A stretch of 64,000 nt of DNA from the NCBI GenBank assembly GCA_947471505.1, contig CANIWM010000022.1, forward strand, positions 1 through 64,000, given 5' to 3'. Made by a program: the position numbers and the translations under genes. The notes beneath the pieces were generated by a model. That model did no database searches, had not been told where the DNA came from, and was given only the letters and a program-made list of their open reading frames with translations. Shown here one piece after another: positions 38,476-47,178 of this stretch; within the stretch, counting starts at the first letter, position 1, and each line of letters begins with the position of its first letter. The stretch is from Chthoniobacteraceae bacterium (GTDB lineage Bacteria; Verrucomicrobiota; Verrucomicrobiia; Chthoniobacterales; Chthoniobacteraceae).

Positions 38476-39240
38476 CTACGAGGTGGCTTCGACTTGGGAG
38501 TGGATTTCGGCTTCATGTGTCGTTTCCGTATCGTTCGGGACTGCTCGGAAATGTTCGGTAGGTTTCGGAAGTTCGCGGTGTGATTGGACGGGTGTGCCGA
38601 GTTGGAGAACTTGCGATTCGAGTTCGCCGATTCGTCGGCTGTCGGAAATGAGGCGTTCGATGTATGCGCGACGTTCCTCGTCTTTCCGAATGAGTTCGTC
38701 GTTGAGTCGGGTGAGCAGTTGTTCTTTCACTCGGTTGGTGATTTCCAAGTCCATTACCTTTCGACGGAGGTCGCGGGTTTCTTCGTCGTCTGGTTCGGAA
38801 GGGCGATGGCTTTTTTCGGAAGCGGCGTTTCCGACGGGTTCGGATTGTTTCGGCAATTCGGGATCAGGTTGCGGAGCGGGTGCAGGGCGTTTTGCTATCT
38901 CCTCTCCGATTGCCAGTGTCACGCTTTGTGGGGTGATGAAGTAGCGGCCTTCGTTTTCATCGAAGAAGGCGTCGAGTCGGGCGACTCCCTGCCGGTTGAG
39001 TTGGCACCAGTTGATGATGCTTCGTTCGGTTCGCGGTGCGCCACCCTTTTCAAAGAGTCGGGCGACTTCTTGCACGGTGAGCGTGTGATTTTGCGTTCGT
39101 TCGGACATCTTCCGAACGGTGCGGAAAGGTTCCGAAGCTTTCGGAATGGTTCTGAACGTTGCCGAATCTTGCGGAAGATTTCCGAAAGGTGCGGAAGGCT
39201 GCGGAACGTTTCCGAAGTCTTCCGAAGTGGGTTGATCCAT
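38476..39240 (-). CDS. DNA-binding coiled-coil protein with decapeptide repeats
   Basis: This 254-residue protein has three parts. Residues 1-46 are four tandem decapeptides of the form SxxFxx(V/L/I)(P/R)xx (SAPFGNLPQD, SATFRTIPKA, SEPFRTVRKM). Residues 50-115 form a MerR-like winged-helix domain (LTVQEVARLFEKGGAPRTER, then FDENEGRYFITPQSV). Residues 150-215 are a charged coiled coil, and the end returns to the repeat (TEHFRAVPND). The HTH-plus-coiled-coil layout resembles plasmid KfrA-like proteins, and I recall similar uncharacterised plasmid proteins. The underlying DNA is a 10-bp phased repeat. Function unknown; plasmid maintenance is inferred. Confidence 0.7.
   Translation of the reverse strand: MDQPTSEDFGNVPQPSAPFGNLPQDSATFRTIPKASEPFRTVRKMSERTQNHTLTVQEVARLFEKGGAPRTERSIINWCQLNRQGVARLDAFFDENEGRYFITPQSVTLAIGEEIAKRPAPAPQPDPELPKQSEPVGNAASEKSHRPSEPDDEETRDLRRKVMDLEITNRVKEQLLTRLNDELIRKDEERRAYIERLISDSRRIGELESQVLQLGTPVQSHRELPKPTEHFRAVPNDTETTHEAEIHSQVEATS
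38521..38570. repeat. 10-bp phased repeat array, 3' end of the coiled-coil gene
   Basis: Five consecutive decamers follow NNNTTC(C/G)GNA with one substitution (CTCGGAA in unit 3), exactly in register, with a degenerate sixth to 38580. The core TTCSGNA is the same as in the larger array at 39101-39230, in the same orientation. A shorter run with three 10-bp-spaced copies lies at 38829-38855. Confidence 0.8.
39101..39230. repeat. 13-unit 10-bp phased repeat array, 5' end of the coiled-coil gene
   Basis: Thirteen consecutive decamers follow (T/G)C(C/G)GAANNNT without a single spacing error. GAA is kept at positions 4-6 in twelve of thirteen, and T at position 10 in twelve of thirteen. Three decamers make ten codons, which is why the protein shows a decapeptide repeat. 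Two further CGGAA copies, 10 bp apart, lie upstream of the gene at 39266-39280 and again at 39349-39363. Confidence 0.92.
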
Positions 39241-39321: not shown

Positions 39322-39464
39322 GCATGTCCGTGTCGAAAACGCTCGATGCGGAACGCTTCGGAAATGGTGGAAAACTCGATGTCTGCGACGCATCGAAAAA
39401 TGTGCGCCCTTTTCGGTAGTTGGAAGCCTTGCGGCGGGGCAGCGAGTCTGCTAAGATTTATTGC

Positions 39465-39746
39465 ATGACAACACTCACAGTCACAATCCGAGATGAAGAC
39501 CAGCACTTCATCGAATCTGCGATGAAAAGCGGACGCTACGTTTCTGAAAGCGAAGCGGTGGCCGATGCGTTTGCGGAACTCCGCAGCCGAGAGGCGATGC
39601 GTCAGGCGCGTCTTGCTGAACTCCGCTCTCAGGTGCAGGCGGGGATCGATGAAATCGAACGTGGTGAAGGCGAAGTATGGGACATGGAGAAAACCAAAGC
39701 TGAAGCCAGGGCATTATTCGCAGCACGTAAGTCAACCGCTGCGTAA
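39465..39746 (+). CDS. ParD-type antitoxin
   Basis: The 93-residue protein starts MTTLTVTIRDEDQHFIESAM, a ribbon-helix-helix DNA-binding segment followed by SGRYVSESEAVADAFAEL, as in ParD/CopG antitoxins. The C-terminal half is acidic and helical (IDEIERGEGEVWDM) for toxin binding. It lies 2 nt before the ParE-like toxin gene. Expression is probably autorepressed. Such modules stabilise plasmids, which fits the island setting. Confidence 0.82.
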   Translation: MTTLTVTIRDEDQHFIESAMKSGRYVSESEAVADAFAELRSREAMRQARLAELRSQVQAGIDEIERGEGEVWDMEKTKAEARALFAARKSTAA

Positions 39747-39748
39747 AG

Positions 39749-40045
39749 ATGCCGAACATCATTCGTTCTCCGCTGGCAAACGCGGACATCATTGAAATCT
39801 GGAACTACATTGCCGAGGATAATCCGGCAGCCGCAGACCGACTACTCGCAAAGTTCGACGACACTTTTCGACGAATTTTACACCAACCCGGAATCGGAAG
39901 AACGACCGACGAACTTGGCTCGGGCCTGCGGATGTTTCCGATAGGCTCCTACCTGATCTTTTACCGTGAACACGGAGCCGACGTGACGGTATTTCGCATA
40001 TTGCACGGCGCTCGCGACATCACGGCGGACTTTTTTACGGAGTAA
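39749..40045 (+). CDS. ParE/RelE-fold toxin
   Basis: The 98-residue protein shows the RelE/ParE pattern: SPLANADIIEIWNYIAEDNPAAADRL at the N-terminus and GSYLIFYREHGADVTVFRILHGARDI at the C-terminus. That pattern is typical of ParE, which inhibits DNA gyrase. The length and antitoxin-first order are standard. No truncation is visible, so the pair may be active. Confidence 0.85.
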   Translation: MPNIIRSPLANADIIEIWNYIAEDNPAAADRLLAKFDDTFRRILHQPGIGRTTDELGSGLRMFPIGSYLIFYREHGADVTVFRILHGARDITADFFTE

Positions 40046-40939: not shown

Positions 40940-41887
40940 ATGGGCCACAAACCGGCTCGCACAGATCCTTATCAACTCGTCACAGACACAATCATTGCTC
41001 ACCTCGAACGCGGAGTCGTTCCGTGGCGCTGCCCTTGGAATCGCTCCACCGGCAGACCGCGAAACTTCTCCACCGGACGCGAGTATCAGGGCGTCAACGT
41101 CCTGCTGCTCGGCATCCAACGATTCGCTTCACCGTGGTGGCTCACGTTCCGACAGGCGCAAGAACGCGGAGGCTGCGTTCGCAAAGGCGAGCGCGGTTCC
41201 ACCGTTATGAAATGGGGACGCCACAATCGCACCGTGAAAAACGGCGACGGCACCGAGGATGAAAAGAAAACTTTCTTCCTCAAAACCTACTGCGTTTTCA
41301 ACGCCTGCCAAATCGACGGCATCCTTTTTCCGGCGACGGAAGAAGGATCGCAGGTCGATTCAAAAGAGCGCATCGCACGGGCAGAAATATTTGCCCGCGA
41401 AATGCCGCAGCCGCCGACCATCGTCGAAGGCCGCAGCACGCAAGCGAGTTACCGAGTTCGCGCAGATACCGTGCAGATGCCTGCACTGGAGCGGTTTGAG
41501 CGGGCAGAGGATTATTACCTCACGCTCTTTCACGAGCTGACTCACGCGACCGGACACGCCTCGCGGCTCAATCGCAAAAGCGTAATCGAAAGCGACGGAT
41601 TCGGCGGCGAAGTTTATTCGCAAGAGGAACTCGTTGCTGAAATCGGCGCGGCATTTCTCGGCACCGAAGCGGACATCATCCGCGACGAGCACGAGCAATC
41701 TGCTTCGTATCTTCGCGGCTGGCTCGACGCTCTAAAAGAGCCCGATGCGCGACGCTGGATTGTCCAAGCGGCAACACAGGCCGGACGGGCTGCGGATTAC
41801 ATCCTTGGCCGTTCGCGCACATCACCCGAGGTGACATCCGACGACCGTCCGCAGTCCATCGTCGCGGAAGCGTTCTGTGGTGAATGA
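40940..41887 (+). CDS. ardC: ArdC-like antirestriction protein (ssDNA-binding domain plus zincin)
   Basis: The 315-residue protein has the ArdC N-terminal domain (about 8-130: DPYQLVTDTIIAHLERGVVP, PWRCPWN, GREYQGVNVLLL, CVRKGERGSTV and FNACQIDG) and a C-terminal polyvalent metallopeptidase domain with the zinc motif HELTHATGH and a downstream EELVAEIGAAFL helix. ArdC proteins enter recipients with conjugating DNA and protect it from restriction. All key residues appear intact. An AAAGG Shine-Dalgarno-like site precedes the ATG. Confidence 0.88.
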   Translation: MGHKPARTDPYQLVTDTIIAHLERGVVPWRCPWNRSTGRPRNFSTGREYQGVNVLLLGIQRFASPWWLTFRQAQERGGCVRKGERGSTVMKWGRHNRTVKNGDGTEDEKKTFFLKTYCVFNACQIDGILFPATEEGSQVDSKERIARAEIFAREMPQPPTIVEGRSTQASYRVRADTVQMPALERFERAEDYYLTLFHELTHATGHASRLNRKSVIESDGFGGEVYSQEELVAEIGAAFLGTEADIIRDEHEQSASYLRGWLDALKEPDARRWIVQAATQAGRAADYILGRSRTSPEVTSDDRPQSIVAEAFCGE

Positions 41888-43646: not shown

Positions 43647-43667
43647 TTGTCCTTTACCAAGGACTGC

Positions 43668-44044
43668 CGCTATCGCCCCGGCAAACGCTTCTACATACAT
43701 GGTATGTAGCCCCGCGCGAAATCCGCGCGACTGATTCACGGCGCAACGTCCGCGTTTACTGACTCCACAAAGGTTGTCGGCAACGCCCGACTTCGCGCGA
43801 TTTCCTCCGGCTATCGGGTTTACCTCCATTAACCACTACGGCACACCAAATCACGCGAAGTCGGCCGCACCGGGCTATCGCCCTACCGACAACCTTTGTG
43901 GAACTACTTCCATAAAGGACAACCTCGCTATCGCGACCGCCCACCCTACCGGGCGGACGAAAACTTCGCGCACAGCGCGGGCTATCGCCACTACTTCGCC
44001 GGACTGAAATCGCGCCCCGCATTTTGTCCTCGCGAGTGCTATCG
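43668..44044. repeat. Six GCTATCG repeats with nested inverted repeats: candidate oriT or oriV
   Basis: GCTATCG occurs at 43668, 43810, 43874, 43927, 43981 and 44038; the last five are spaced 64, 53, 54 and 57 bp. The array contains a perfect 16-bp inverted repeat (43765-43780 with 43886-43901) with an inner 15/16 inverted repeat (43788-43803 with 43848-43863). A palindrome CTACATAC-ATG-GTATGTAG lies at 43691-43709. The whole 43647-44115 gap has no convincing gene and sits directly before the replication-relaxation gene. Confidence 0.6.
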
Positions 44045-44115
44045 CACCGCACACACTTGTTCGCCATCGGCGCACCGATTTTGCCGCGACTCTCGTTGTC
44101 TGTTAAAATGAAAGC

Positions 44116-45030
44116 ATGACAGCCCTTCGACACCCTCGCTTTCAGCGGGCGGAAAATTTCCCGCCGATGGAACTCACTCCGCGTGACGCGGAGATTCTTC
44201 GGCTTGTGCAGCGGCATCGCTTTTTGCGTTCGCATCAACTCGCCGCGCTGATTGGCGGGAGTCGTCAGCAACTCCTTCGTCGCTTGCAGTCGCTCTATCA
44301 TCACGGATTCGTGGAGCGACCATTGTCGCAAATCGAATACTACCAGCGCGGAGGCTCGCAGAGCATGGTCTATGGACTCGCAAATCGCGGAGCCGCGCAC
44401 CTCGCGCGTGCCGATGGACACAGCATTCCCCGTCTCGATTGGAACGCCCGCAATCGCCACACCACTCGCCTCTTTCTCGAACATGCGCTGATGATTTCCG
44501 AAATCATCGTCGCGCTCGAAATCGCCGCACGCAGCATTCCCGGCGTTCGCATTTTGCATCACGACGAATCGTCGAAATGGAAAATCCCGATGCGCGGAAG
44601 TGCGCCCGTCACCGTCATCCCCGATGCCCTCTTTTTCATCGAGCACACACGCTCCGACGGCACCGCCGACACCATCCTCTTCGCACTGGAGTCCGACCGT
44701 GGCACCATGCCCGTGCAAAGCGCCAACCGTTCGCGCAGCTCCATCGCCCGCAAGCTCACCGCCTATGAAGCGAGCTGGCGTGCAAACATCTTCCGCCAGC
44801 TATTCGACGCGACTCGCGTGCAAATCCTCAACATCACCACCAGCGCCGCGAGGCTTGCATCCATTACCGAGCACGCACGCTCGCACGTCAGCGCCGCCGG
44901 GCTTTTTCACTTCGCCACACTCGCGCAACTCACCGCTTCACCCACGCAGTTTCTCGCCGCGCTCGTGGACAACAAAACGCCCGCTACCGCGCAAAGCATG
45001 TTCGAGTTCACCCCGCTGCCCGCCACGTAA
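44116..45030 (+). CDS. Replication-relaxation family protein
   Basis: The 304-residue protein begins with a winged-helix domain (about 18-100: ELTPRDAEILRLVQRHRFLR, HQLAALIGGSRQQLLRRLQSL, GFVERP, MVYGLANRGAAHLA). A nuclease-like core follows (about 110-260) with IPDALFFIEH and FALESDRGTMPVQ, resembling the PD-(D/E)xK-like pattern of the replication-relaxation family. This family is thought to act in plasmid replication or transfer initiation, but its chemistry is not settled. It lies after the repeat-rich gap and before the VirD4/HerA-like ATPase gene, the position of a relaxase. Confidence 0.72.
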   Translation: MTALRHPRFQRAENFPPMELTPRDAEILRLVQRHRFLRSHQLAALIGGSRQQLLRRLQSLYHHGFVERPLSQIEYYQRGGSQSMVYGLANRGAAHLARADGHSIPRLDWNARNRHTTRLFLEHALMISEIIVALEIAARSIPGVRILHHDESSKWKIPMRGSAPVTVIPDALFFIEHTRSDGTADTILFALESDRGTMPVQSANRSRSSIARKLTAYEASWRANIFRQLFDATRVQILNITTSAARLASITEHARSHVSAAGLFHFATLAQLTASPTQFLAALVDNKTPATAQSMFEFTPLPAT

Positions 45031-45197
45031 TTTTCAGGCATCGCAGCCAGTCTCCATTACCTCATCCGCTCGCCCTCGTGCGTTGTTGCGGGTGGAAGCA
45101 ATTCGCTTCGGATAAAACCTCACGCCAAGCTGATAAGACACGGCAGCGCGGCGCGGTGTTCCCTCCGAATGCAGGAGTGGCGGCTGGCTCCGGCACC

Positions 45198-46577
45198 ATG
45201 AACAACGAAAACTTCACACACATCGGCACACGCGAGATTTGGGGCGCACAACACCCCGTGGTTCTTTCGCTGCCCGACCGCCGCCAACACCTCTACGTGA
45301 TCGGCAAAACGGGCTCGGGAAAAACAACCCTGCTCCGCAATCTCATCATCCAACACCTCGCCGCCGGACACGGCATCGGCCTCATTGACCCACACGGCGA
45401 CCTCGCCGAAGAACTCCTCGATTGCATACCGCCGCACCGCGCCGACGACCTCGTATATTTCAATCCCGGCGACCTCGAATTCCCCATCGCCATGAACCCA
45501 CTCGCCATGAACCCACTCGCCATGAACCCACTCGCCATGAACCCACTCGCCAACGTCCCGCCCGACGAACGTCATCTCGTCGCAAGCGGCATCGTAGCTT
45601 CGTTTAAGAGCATCTGGCGCGACTCCTGGGGGCCAAGACTCGAATACATTTTATACAACGCCATCGCCGCCCTGCTCGATTGCCCAAACACTTCCCTGCT
45701 CGGCGTCAACCGAATGCTCACCGACGCCAAGTATCGCCGCCGAATCGTCGCCAAAGTGCGCGACCCATTCATCCGCGCATTCTGGCTCGAAGAATACGAA
45801 AATTACGACCCTCGTTTCCAACGTGAAGCCATCGCCCCGATTCAGAACAAGCTCGGCCAATTCATCCAAAACCCCGTCGTCCGCAACATCCTCGGTCAAG
45901 TGCGAAACAAAGTGAGCATCCCCTTCATGATGGACACCGGACGCATCTTCATCGCAAACCTCAGCAAAGGCCGTATCGGAGCCGACAAATCCAGCCTTCT
46001 CGGAAGCCTGCTCACCACCCAATTTCAACTCGCCGCAATGTCCCGAGTGAACCAGACCGAACAATCCCGCCGCGACTTTTTCCTCTTCATAGACGAGTTC
46101 CAAAACTTCACCACCGATTCATTCGCAAGCATCCTCTCCGAAGCCCGCAAATACCGGCTATGCCTCACGCTCTCCCACCAATACATCGAACAACTCCCCG
46201 ACCCAATCCGCGCCGCAATCTTCGGCAACGTCGGCTCACTCATTTCATTCCGAGTCGGCAACACCGACGCCCAAGCACTCACCCGTGAATTCGGCACCGC
46301 TTTCGTTCCAGAAACATTCACGGGCCTCGACCGCTTCCGCATCATCGCCCGCCTCAACGAAGACGGCCAAACCCGCGAACCCTTCCAAGCCGCCACACTC
46401 GCCCCGATAGATTTCACGATCAGTCGCCGCGAAAAACTCATCGCTCGCTCCCGCGAAAAATACGCTGCACCCCGAGCAATCGTGGAAGCAAAAGTAGAGC
46501 GATGGATGCGCTCCCCGATTGATGTCGGAAAGAAAAAACCCGGAGGCAGCATCCCATTCTTGGCAGTTCGAGTATAG
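45198..46577 (+). CDS. VirD4/TraG/HerA-like coupling ATPase without membrane anchor
   Basis: The 459-residue ATPase has Walker A VIGKTGSGKTT (about 34-44), GLIDPHGDLAEELL, Walker B FLFIDEFQNF (about 295) and the C-terminal LSHQYIEQLPDPIRAAIFGN and VGSLISFRVGNTDA regions of T4 coupling proteins. There is no N-terminal membrane helix, so it is either cytosolic or recruited by a partner. It contains a fourfold MNPLA repeat. The start MNNENFTHIG at 45198 is chosen because the upstream 40 codons lack family sense. With the previous gene it forms a minimal DNA-processing pair. Confidence 0.82.
   Translation: MNNENFTHIGTREIWGAQHPVVLSLPDRRQHLYVIGKTGSGKTTLLRNLIIQHLAAGHGIGLIDPHGDLAEELLDCIPPHRADDLVYFNPGDLEFPIAMNPLAMNPLAMNPLAMNPLANVPPDERHLVASGIVASFKSIWRDSWGPRLEYILYNAIAALLDCPNTSLLGVNRMLTDAKYRRRIVAKVRDPFIRAFWLEEYENYDPRFQREAIAPIQNKLGQFIQNPVVRNILGQVRNKVSIPFMMDTGRIFIANLSKGRIGADKSSLLGSLLTTQFQLAAMSRVNQTEQSRRDFFLFIDEFQNFTTDSFASILSEARKYRLCLTLSHQYIEQLPDPIRAAIFGNVGSLISFRVGNTDAQALTREFGTAFVPETFTGLDRFRIIARLNEDGQTREPFQAATLAPIDFTISRREKLIARSREKYAAPRAIVEAKVERWMRSPIDVGKKKPGGSIPFLAVRV
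45492..45551 (+). repeat. Four exact 15-bp tandem repeats inside the ATPase gene
   Basis: ATGAACCCACTCGCC occurs four times without change, encoding MNPLA four times. The family normally has one such unit (PIAMNPLANVPPDERH). The exact identity points to recent slippage, in frame. Confidence 0.92.
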
Positions 46578-46581
46578 AAAC

Positions 46582-46844
46582 GCAGATGGCCAGTATTCCC
46601 CCCGTCCGCTCATCGAGAGCATCGTCGAAGTCACCAAGCCCGCGTCTCGCGAAATCATTCACGATCCCGCGTGCGGCACGCTCGGCTTCCTAATCATGGC
46701 CGACTGCTCTATCAAGGAGAAGAACGACGACCTCTTTGAACTCTCGGAGAAGGAGCAGGAGTTCCAGAAGCATCACGCTTTCGTGGGCATGGAGCTTGTG
46801 CCCGACACCCACCGTCTTGCGCTGATGAATGCGCTTCTCCATGA
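46582..46844 (+). pseudogene. Fragment of a type I restriction methylase (hsdM)
   Basis: About 86 codons read GQYSPRPLIESIVEV, HDPACGTLGFLIMAD, LFELSEKEQEFQKHHAF and VGMELVPDTHRLALMNALLHD, clear HsdM sequence around the SAM-binding motif. The N-terminal specificity part and the NPPF catalytic region are missing. Two signature sites are damaged: GQYFTPRPL is shortened to GQYSPRPL, and CGTGGF has become CGTLGF. The fragment ends abruptly at a foreign junction at 46844/46845. It is a relic, not a working gene. Confidence 0.85.
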
Positions 46845-46915
46845 TTCAACAGTCTGCGCATCACGGAAATCATGTACAATCCATCCGGCGGGCTCACAGA
46901 ATCGGACTTCGTCGT
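46845..46915 (+). pseudogene. Fragment of an LTD-domain gene, exact 46-nt copy
   Basis: Bases 46845-46890 are identical to 57896-57941 in the LTD/CotH gene. Translated in that frame they give NSLRITEIMYNPSG, the start of a lamin-tail domain, continuing as GLTESDFVV before it diverges. No complete gene remains here. The following stretch to 47178 shows no supported gene. Confidence 0.85.
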
Positions 46916-47178
46916 GCGACTCAGCAGCCGTTCTGCGTGGCGGTCATTCTTCCGCGAAAACGCCAAACGCGCTGACGGCGCATCTGACCGCCGATGATGC
47001 GTTTTTCCAAATCGCGGACAAGAAAAGGCTGTGCCGACGCAGCCACCCCTGACCACGTCGGCACTTACCTCGGTGCAGGCCCTCGTGTCCCCCACCAAGA
47101 GGACACGCGACTTCTGCACGCCGTTCCAGAATGAGCGCTACCCGTCAAAGCGCAACTCACCCCAAATTGAAAAACCCC

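Follow-up and report, generated by a model that had tools for sequence, protein, structure and literature searches.

In the 64,000-nt stretch of DNA analyzed here (the window), the 469-bp gene-free gap between the stop of an HTH gene (43646) and the start of a Replic_Relax gene (44116) contains a structured noncoding element that is present in ~29 verrucomicrobial loci, where its constant neighbor is a gene for a TraD/TrwB/HerA-like ATPase. The gap probably serves an integrative mobile element in cis as a DNA-processing origin, most likely one that resembles an origin of transfer (oriT). The element is new in that it is absent from Rfam and no description of it was found in the open-access literature searched. 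If this reading is true, a mobile-element family widespread in the Verrucomicrobiota, a phylum in which gene-transfer machinery has been little studied, would gain a candidate origin, and there would be a natural data set for a DNA fold that is conserved, in place of a base sequence, across the class and beyond. Two further questions could then be put: how an origin is recognized and processed by MOB_C-type nickases, which apparently do not stay covalently attached to DNA, and whether the hairpins serve as start sites for the primase that the element encodes. The features of the region, all on the + strand, are as follows.

43647-44100 (+): structured noncoding element, candidate nick/transfer origin, at its full extent; conserved in relatives, with low fold z-scores and without an Rfam match
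43649-43664 (+): hairpin-forming sequence GTCCTTTACCAAGGAC
43691-43709 (+): 5' hairpin CTACATAC-ATG-GTATGTAG, exact in 15 further verrucomicrobial elements retrieved using that hairpin as the query
43713-43729 (+): second hairpin, CGCGCG-AAATC-CGCGCG; GGGC...GCCC and the like in relatives
43764-43780 (+): outer helix, 5' arm, in perfect 17-bp pairing with 43886-43902
43784-43803 (+): inner helix, 5' arm, including CCGACTTCGCGC; inverted repeat with covariation and without G.T pairs
43848-43867 (+): inner helix, 3' arm; inverted repeat with covariation
43872-43883 (+): TATC tetraloop hairpin GGGC-TATC-GCCC, holding a GCTATCG copy
43886-43902 (+): outer helix, 3' arm, pairing with 43764-43780
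43925-43936 (+): TATC tetraloop hairpin TCGC-TATC-GCGA, holding a GCTATCG copy
43980-43989 (+): TATC tetraloop hairpin GGC-TATC-GCC, holding a GCTATCG copy
44036-44047 (+): TATC tetraloop hairpin GTGC-TATC-GCAC, holding a GCTATCG copy
44081-44109 (+): promoter TTGCCG-17-TAAAAT with extended TG, at the 3' edge of the element and directed away from it
44116-45030 (+): Replic_Relax protein of 304 aa, MOB_C-type relaxase candidate (PF13814, E 8e-29), with winged-helix and restriction-nuclease-like domains
45043-45056 (+): ATPase leader hairpin, 5' arm, part of a separate RNA-type structure
45178-45191 (+): ATPase leader hairpin, 3' arm, lying between GGAG and the ATG at 45198
45198-46577 (+): TraD/TrwB/HerA-like ATPase, the element's constant partner (PF10412, E 7e-10; PF01935; PF12696)

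Repeats and small hairpins in the gap

The preliminary description of this DNA had drawn attention to the size of the gap, to six copies of the heptamer GCTATCG, five of them 53-64 bp apart, and to a perfect 16-bp inverted repeat enclosing a 15/16-bp one. The gap size holds, as does the array: GCTATCG starts on the + strand at 43669, 43810, 43874, 43927, 43981, and 44038, with successive spacings of 141, 64, 53, 54, and 57 bp, so that four of the five spacings fall within the range given. The heptamer occurs 394 times on one strand of the 6.07-Mb genome, or ~0.03 times per 469 bp, and six copies in the gap are therefore far beyond chance. The nested repeats are slightly better than had been claimed, in that a perfect 17-bp inverted repeat (43764-43780/43886-43902) encloses a 20-nt inverted repeat with 90% pairing (43784-43803/43848-43867). 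At the 5' edge of the element, TTGTCCTTTA (43647-43656) also matches TAAAGGACAA at 43913-43922.

The heptamer itself is the loop (TANC) plus the closing pairs of a repeated small hairpin whose stems vary independently. Across the 29 elements, there are 32 perfect hairpins with a stem of ≥4 bp and a TANC loop, 19 of them with TATC, against an expectation of 0.8 and a maximum of 4 in 200 base-composition shuffles. Because the stems differ between these hairpins (gggc/gccc, tcgc/gcga, and gtgc/gcac in the window; ggat/atcc, ggct/agcc, and ggaac/gttcc in other elements), GCTATCG is to be read as loop and closing pairs, and its spacing is no conserved code. The exact spacing was considered as a signature of the element and rejected, as relatives differ in both copy number and spacing. 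Thus, the array is present in the window, but neither the exact heptamer nor its regular spacing is kept in relatives, whereas the TANC-loop hairpins are.

Recurrence of the element and its gene module

A DNA search recovered the element from two relatives, with identities of 82% and 74%. Exact-pattern searching with the 19-base hairpin CTACATACATGGTATGTAG gave matches in many verrucomicrobial assemblies, and 15 of the matched loci carry the element through its core. Perfect conservation of CTACATACATGGTATGTAG among these copies is partly a selection effect, since the query was exact; copies found without the pattern have changed 5' hairpin arms, for example CCCCGACATAC-CG-GTATGTCGGGG in L115. 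Four pattern matches (L022, L031, L035, and L036) were dropped, being similar to one another, from other phyla, and with nothing else in common with the element, and L030 retains just ~50 bases of the 5' part. The genome palsa_1396 has no fewer than seven copies, whole or partial, and several of them are at contig ends, as is usual for repeated sequences; the compared genomes are draft assemblies. In two palsa_1396 copies, the sequence breaks off close to the apex of the long hairpin, with one retaining the 5' half and the other the 3' half (L070 and L071).

A search with the Replic_Relax protein, which is independent of the DNA element, found carriers within the phylum and in 21 of 384 genomes of the class. 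When a covariance model of the core was scanned over stretches fetched around the Replic_Relax genes, 10 of the 12 new loci with an intact ATPase gene were found to carry the element upstream of that gene and on the same strand (L106, L109, L113, L114, L115, L116, L119, L062, L063, and L064), a count that leaves out the loci already known from the DNA pattern. The separation between element and ATPase gene is ~1 kb in L113 and ~7 kb in L116. By the same core model, the element is absent from the other two loci with an intact ATPase (L107 and L117) and from two loci whose ATPase genes are truncated (L110 and L120), and only its last 29 positions are found at a contig end in L111 (E 0.3). The comparison of regions upstream of homologous Replic_Relax/ATPase loci, which the preliminary description had proposed, thus recovered a related element. 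It had named unrelated upstream gaps and a motif equally common throughout the genome as evidence against its reading; instead, the element recurs 5' of the ATPase gene and GCTATCG is scarce genome-wide. Outside these genomes, element DNA had no match in phage and plasmid collections; a viral collection gave no match to the 19-base pattern and two distant Replic_Relax fragments, both without the element; a Bradyrhizobium plasmid with a distant Replic_Relax homolog also lacks it; and a protein-only scan of genome contigs yielded no find.

The ATPase gene follows the element in 13 pattern-derived loci, the window included. Farther along in relatives lie the genes for Replic_Relax and for a DnaG-like primase that has zinc ribbon and Toprim domains. 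The placement of the gap directly upstream of Replic_Relax and an ATPase, to which the preliminary description had pointed, is true of the window, but the constant partner is the ATPase, and only the window and its close relative L025 have Replic_Relax directly 3' of the element. In these two loci, the order is rearranged to HTH gene, element, Replic_Relax, and ATPase, and the DnaG-like primase was not seen beside the module. Other recurrent genes encode a small HTH protein just before Replic_Relax, a 98-aa protein, a 164-aa protein, and ArdC. In three palsa_1396 loci (L065, L066, and L068), different genes lie 3' of the ATPase, that of L068 being patatin-like by look, and in L065 and L066, Replic_Relax comes after the differing genes, as if these occupied a cargo slot.

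Folding at the DNA or RNA level

Compared with dinucleotide-preserving shuffles, the gap folds with z-scores of -6.2 (+ strand) and -7.7 (- strand) as RNA and of -7.4 as DNA, and no Rfam family matches anywhere in the window. The inner helix was compared among relatives. In 20 distinct sequences (240 cells), 97.5% of cells are paired, and 50 have changed on both sides while none has changed on one side only. No shuffle matched the observed percentage paired, double-change count, or covariation score, and pairing dropped to 25-39% when the register was slid. Over 29 sequences, the inner helix has 462 Watson-Crick cells and no G.T cell; another 11 A.C cells and 10 of other kinds are located near the end of the helix, and a one-base bulge in the clade of the window accounts for some of them. 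A symmetric count of G.T and A.C cells over whole local alignments was discarded, as these ran across junctions.

The leader hairpin of the ATPase gene, present at the same loci, served as an internal control. Its arms (5' like AAAACCAGTCGCCA, 3' TGGCGACTGGTTTT) are conserved in ~22 loci with G-U pairs and compensatory changes, and the hairpin resembles a switch that controls translation of the ATPase. Here, 18 G.T cells were counted against 280 Watson-Crick cells, and the contrast with the inner helix gives a Fisher p of 3e-8, a value that ignores relatedness among the sequences. In each of the 29 copies of the main element, moreover, one strand folds about as well as the other, and an extended -10 pattern is found 3' of the core in 12 of the 29 (0.5 in shuffles, with a maximum of 3).

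A helix under selection as RNA should show G-U intermediates, and the inner helix shows none, which argues against a sense-strand RNA. A sense-strand RNA had been a candidate on the grounds that the first folds and the RNAalifold consensus were RNA-like, but the absent wobble pairs and the strand symmetry told against it. Together with the promoter at the 3' edge, these two observations favor selection as DNA hairpins, i.e., a structure whose relevance is at the DNA level, whether in single-stranded or in extruded form. Template-switching repair between the arms could also keep them perfect, and would likewise need DNA hairpins.

Encoded proteins and probable function of the element

The Replic_Relax protein of the window matches PF13814 with 101.5 bits (cut-off, 25.3) and also matches phrog_9381, a phage family annotated as "replication initiation by nicking". 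The best solved match in a Foldseek search with its AlphaFold model (pLDDT 78, pTM 0.80) was the restriction enzyme BstEII (E 5e-6), the sole match below 0.001, with low TM-scores; weaker matches were to the nicking endonuclease Nt.BspD6I, EndoMS, and MarR-type winged helices. The model is suggestive of a winged helix joined to a restriction-nuclease-like (PD-(D/E)XK) fold, and the invariant residues include P169-D170, E192, D194, and K213. PF13814 has been scored as the MobC relaxase of integrative mobilizable elements with their own VirD4 coupling protein (PMC5357655; PMC5704250), and MOB_C relaxases are related to restriction endonucleases (PMC12857230). In the ATPase, the TrwB/TraD-like core is recognized by PF10412 and PF12696, while no NCBIfam model reaches its cut-off. 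Its Walker A motif lies near residue 30, with no hydrophobic segment ahead of it on direct reading of the sequence; in this, it appears to differ from VirD4, which has an N-terminal membrane domain. The window's ATPase has an in-frame tandem repeat at ~45490-45555 (AMNPL repeated) that is missing from all aligned relatives.

These neighbors suggest how an oriT-like element may work. Replic_Relax would bind the hairpin array, for which the small GCTATCG/TANC hairpins are plausible repeated binding units, and would nick one strand near it; the ATPase may then drive the freed strand, and the hairpins on the single strand could assist in termination or, together with the primase of the element, in second-strand priming. 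Two features of known oriTs are found here, namely a noncoding region beside genes for a relaxase-type protein (Replic_Relax) and a coupling-type ATPase, and inverted or direct repeats that are kept among related elements. The oriTs of the MOB_C (Replic_Relax/TraX/MobC) group, as in pAD1, CloDF13, and streptococcal integrative elements with MobC and VirD4, likewise combine a PF13814-type relaxase, a coupling-type ATPase, and a repeat-bearing noncoding region near the mobilization genes (PMC5357655, PMC12857230, PMC5704250). CloDF13 MobC apparently does not remain covalently attached (PMC9299015). In pAD1, the site bound by TraX consists of five direct repeats at a distance of 70-120 bp from nic (PMC12857230). 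As described, that site is unlike the element analyzed here, in which nested hairpins and tetraloop hairpins with covariation at the DNA level extend over ~450 bp, and the present family differs from MOB_C elements further in adding a DnaG-like primase and in having no known transfer pore. On conjugative plasmids, single-strand initiation sites and ssDNA promoters are folded single-stranded DNA on which synthesis starts after transfer. The element is much longer than these, adjoins a translocase gene, and comes with its own primase. A more specific proposal, which we put forward tentatively and hold to be doubtful as a whole, is an origin of a new type whose recognition depends on shape. It would consist of an array of DNA hairpins, with TANC tetraloops, that surrounds a long double helix and evolves under strict Watson-Crick covariation; in integrative elements across the Verrucomicrobiota, a winged-helix/restriction-fold protein would bind and nick it, and the primase of the element would copy it.

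The origin-of-transfer or second-origin reading of the preliminary description remains the best-supported class (a conserved, noncoding, hairpin-rich element 5' of a coupling-type ATPase, with Replic_Relax in the elements), but VirB4, which would mark a conjugative element with its own T4SS, was not found in 11 carrier genomes by PF03135, nor over the cut-off by TIGR00929 or PF12846 in 10 genomes. The element therefore has no known helper pore. Together with the lack of an evident membrane segment in the ATPase, this makes a strong rival of a replication origin (double- and/or single-strand) of an excised plasmid- or phage-like form, at which Replic_Relax would nick or open the DNA and the DnaG-like primase would start synthesis with no conjugation. 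The primase encoded with the module and the phrog_9381 match also point this way. We nevertheless consider it unlikely, as others have assigned Replic_Relax to the MOB_C relaxases (PMC5357655), the constant neighbor is a TraD/TrwB-type ATPase that a replication origin does not need, and ArdC is typical of conjugative elements.

The same strong covariation and repeated tetraloop hairpins resemble a structured RNA family, and the element could be a large noncoding RNA needed by the mobile element. A precedent exists in SGI1, whose sgm-sRNA, likewise a noncoding determinant beside mobilization genes, is required for mobilization and encoded beside oriT (PMC9299015). That molecule acts as RNA, whereas the element has no G.U pairs in its covarying inner helix, though the adjacent leader hairpin has them, and lies upstream of an operon promoter that reads away from it. 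Neither an Rfam match, nor G-U-type single changes, nor a better-folding sense strand was found, and an RNA appears improbable. Slightly less probable still is a regulatory operator or a site-specific recombination/attachment region, whose palindromes would bind regulators or an integrase and whose repeats would be kept perfect by template switching. Such a region would fit the position just upstream of the operon promoter, the tyrosine integrase gene ~190 bp upstream of the core in L062, and the several copies broken near the hairpin apex. At >400 bp, however, with nested helices and repeated tetraloop hairpins, the element exceeds the usual operator, and the genes upstream of it are conserved as well, so that it does not look like the end of a mobile element.

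Several further features of the island were noted around the candidate origin. The ArdC antirestriction protein is encoded at 40940-41887, 1.8 kb upstream of the element, and homologs are found near the module in ~10 relatives. A ParD/ParE toxin-antitoxin pair lies at 39420-40045 in the same island. Directly after the ATPase gene, 46519-47052 encodes what reads from its sequence as an N6-adenine methylase-like fragment, which suggests that the island may have been cut or rearranged there. On the minus strand, 38476-39240 encodes a protein with no Pfam or PHROGs match and with N-terminal repeated FGN(L/V)PQ/FRT(I/V)P-like units, a counterpart of which is encoded near the element in L102, L026, L114, L109, and L106.
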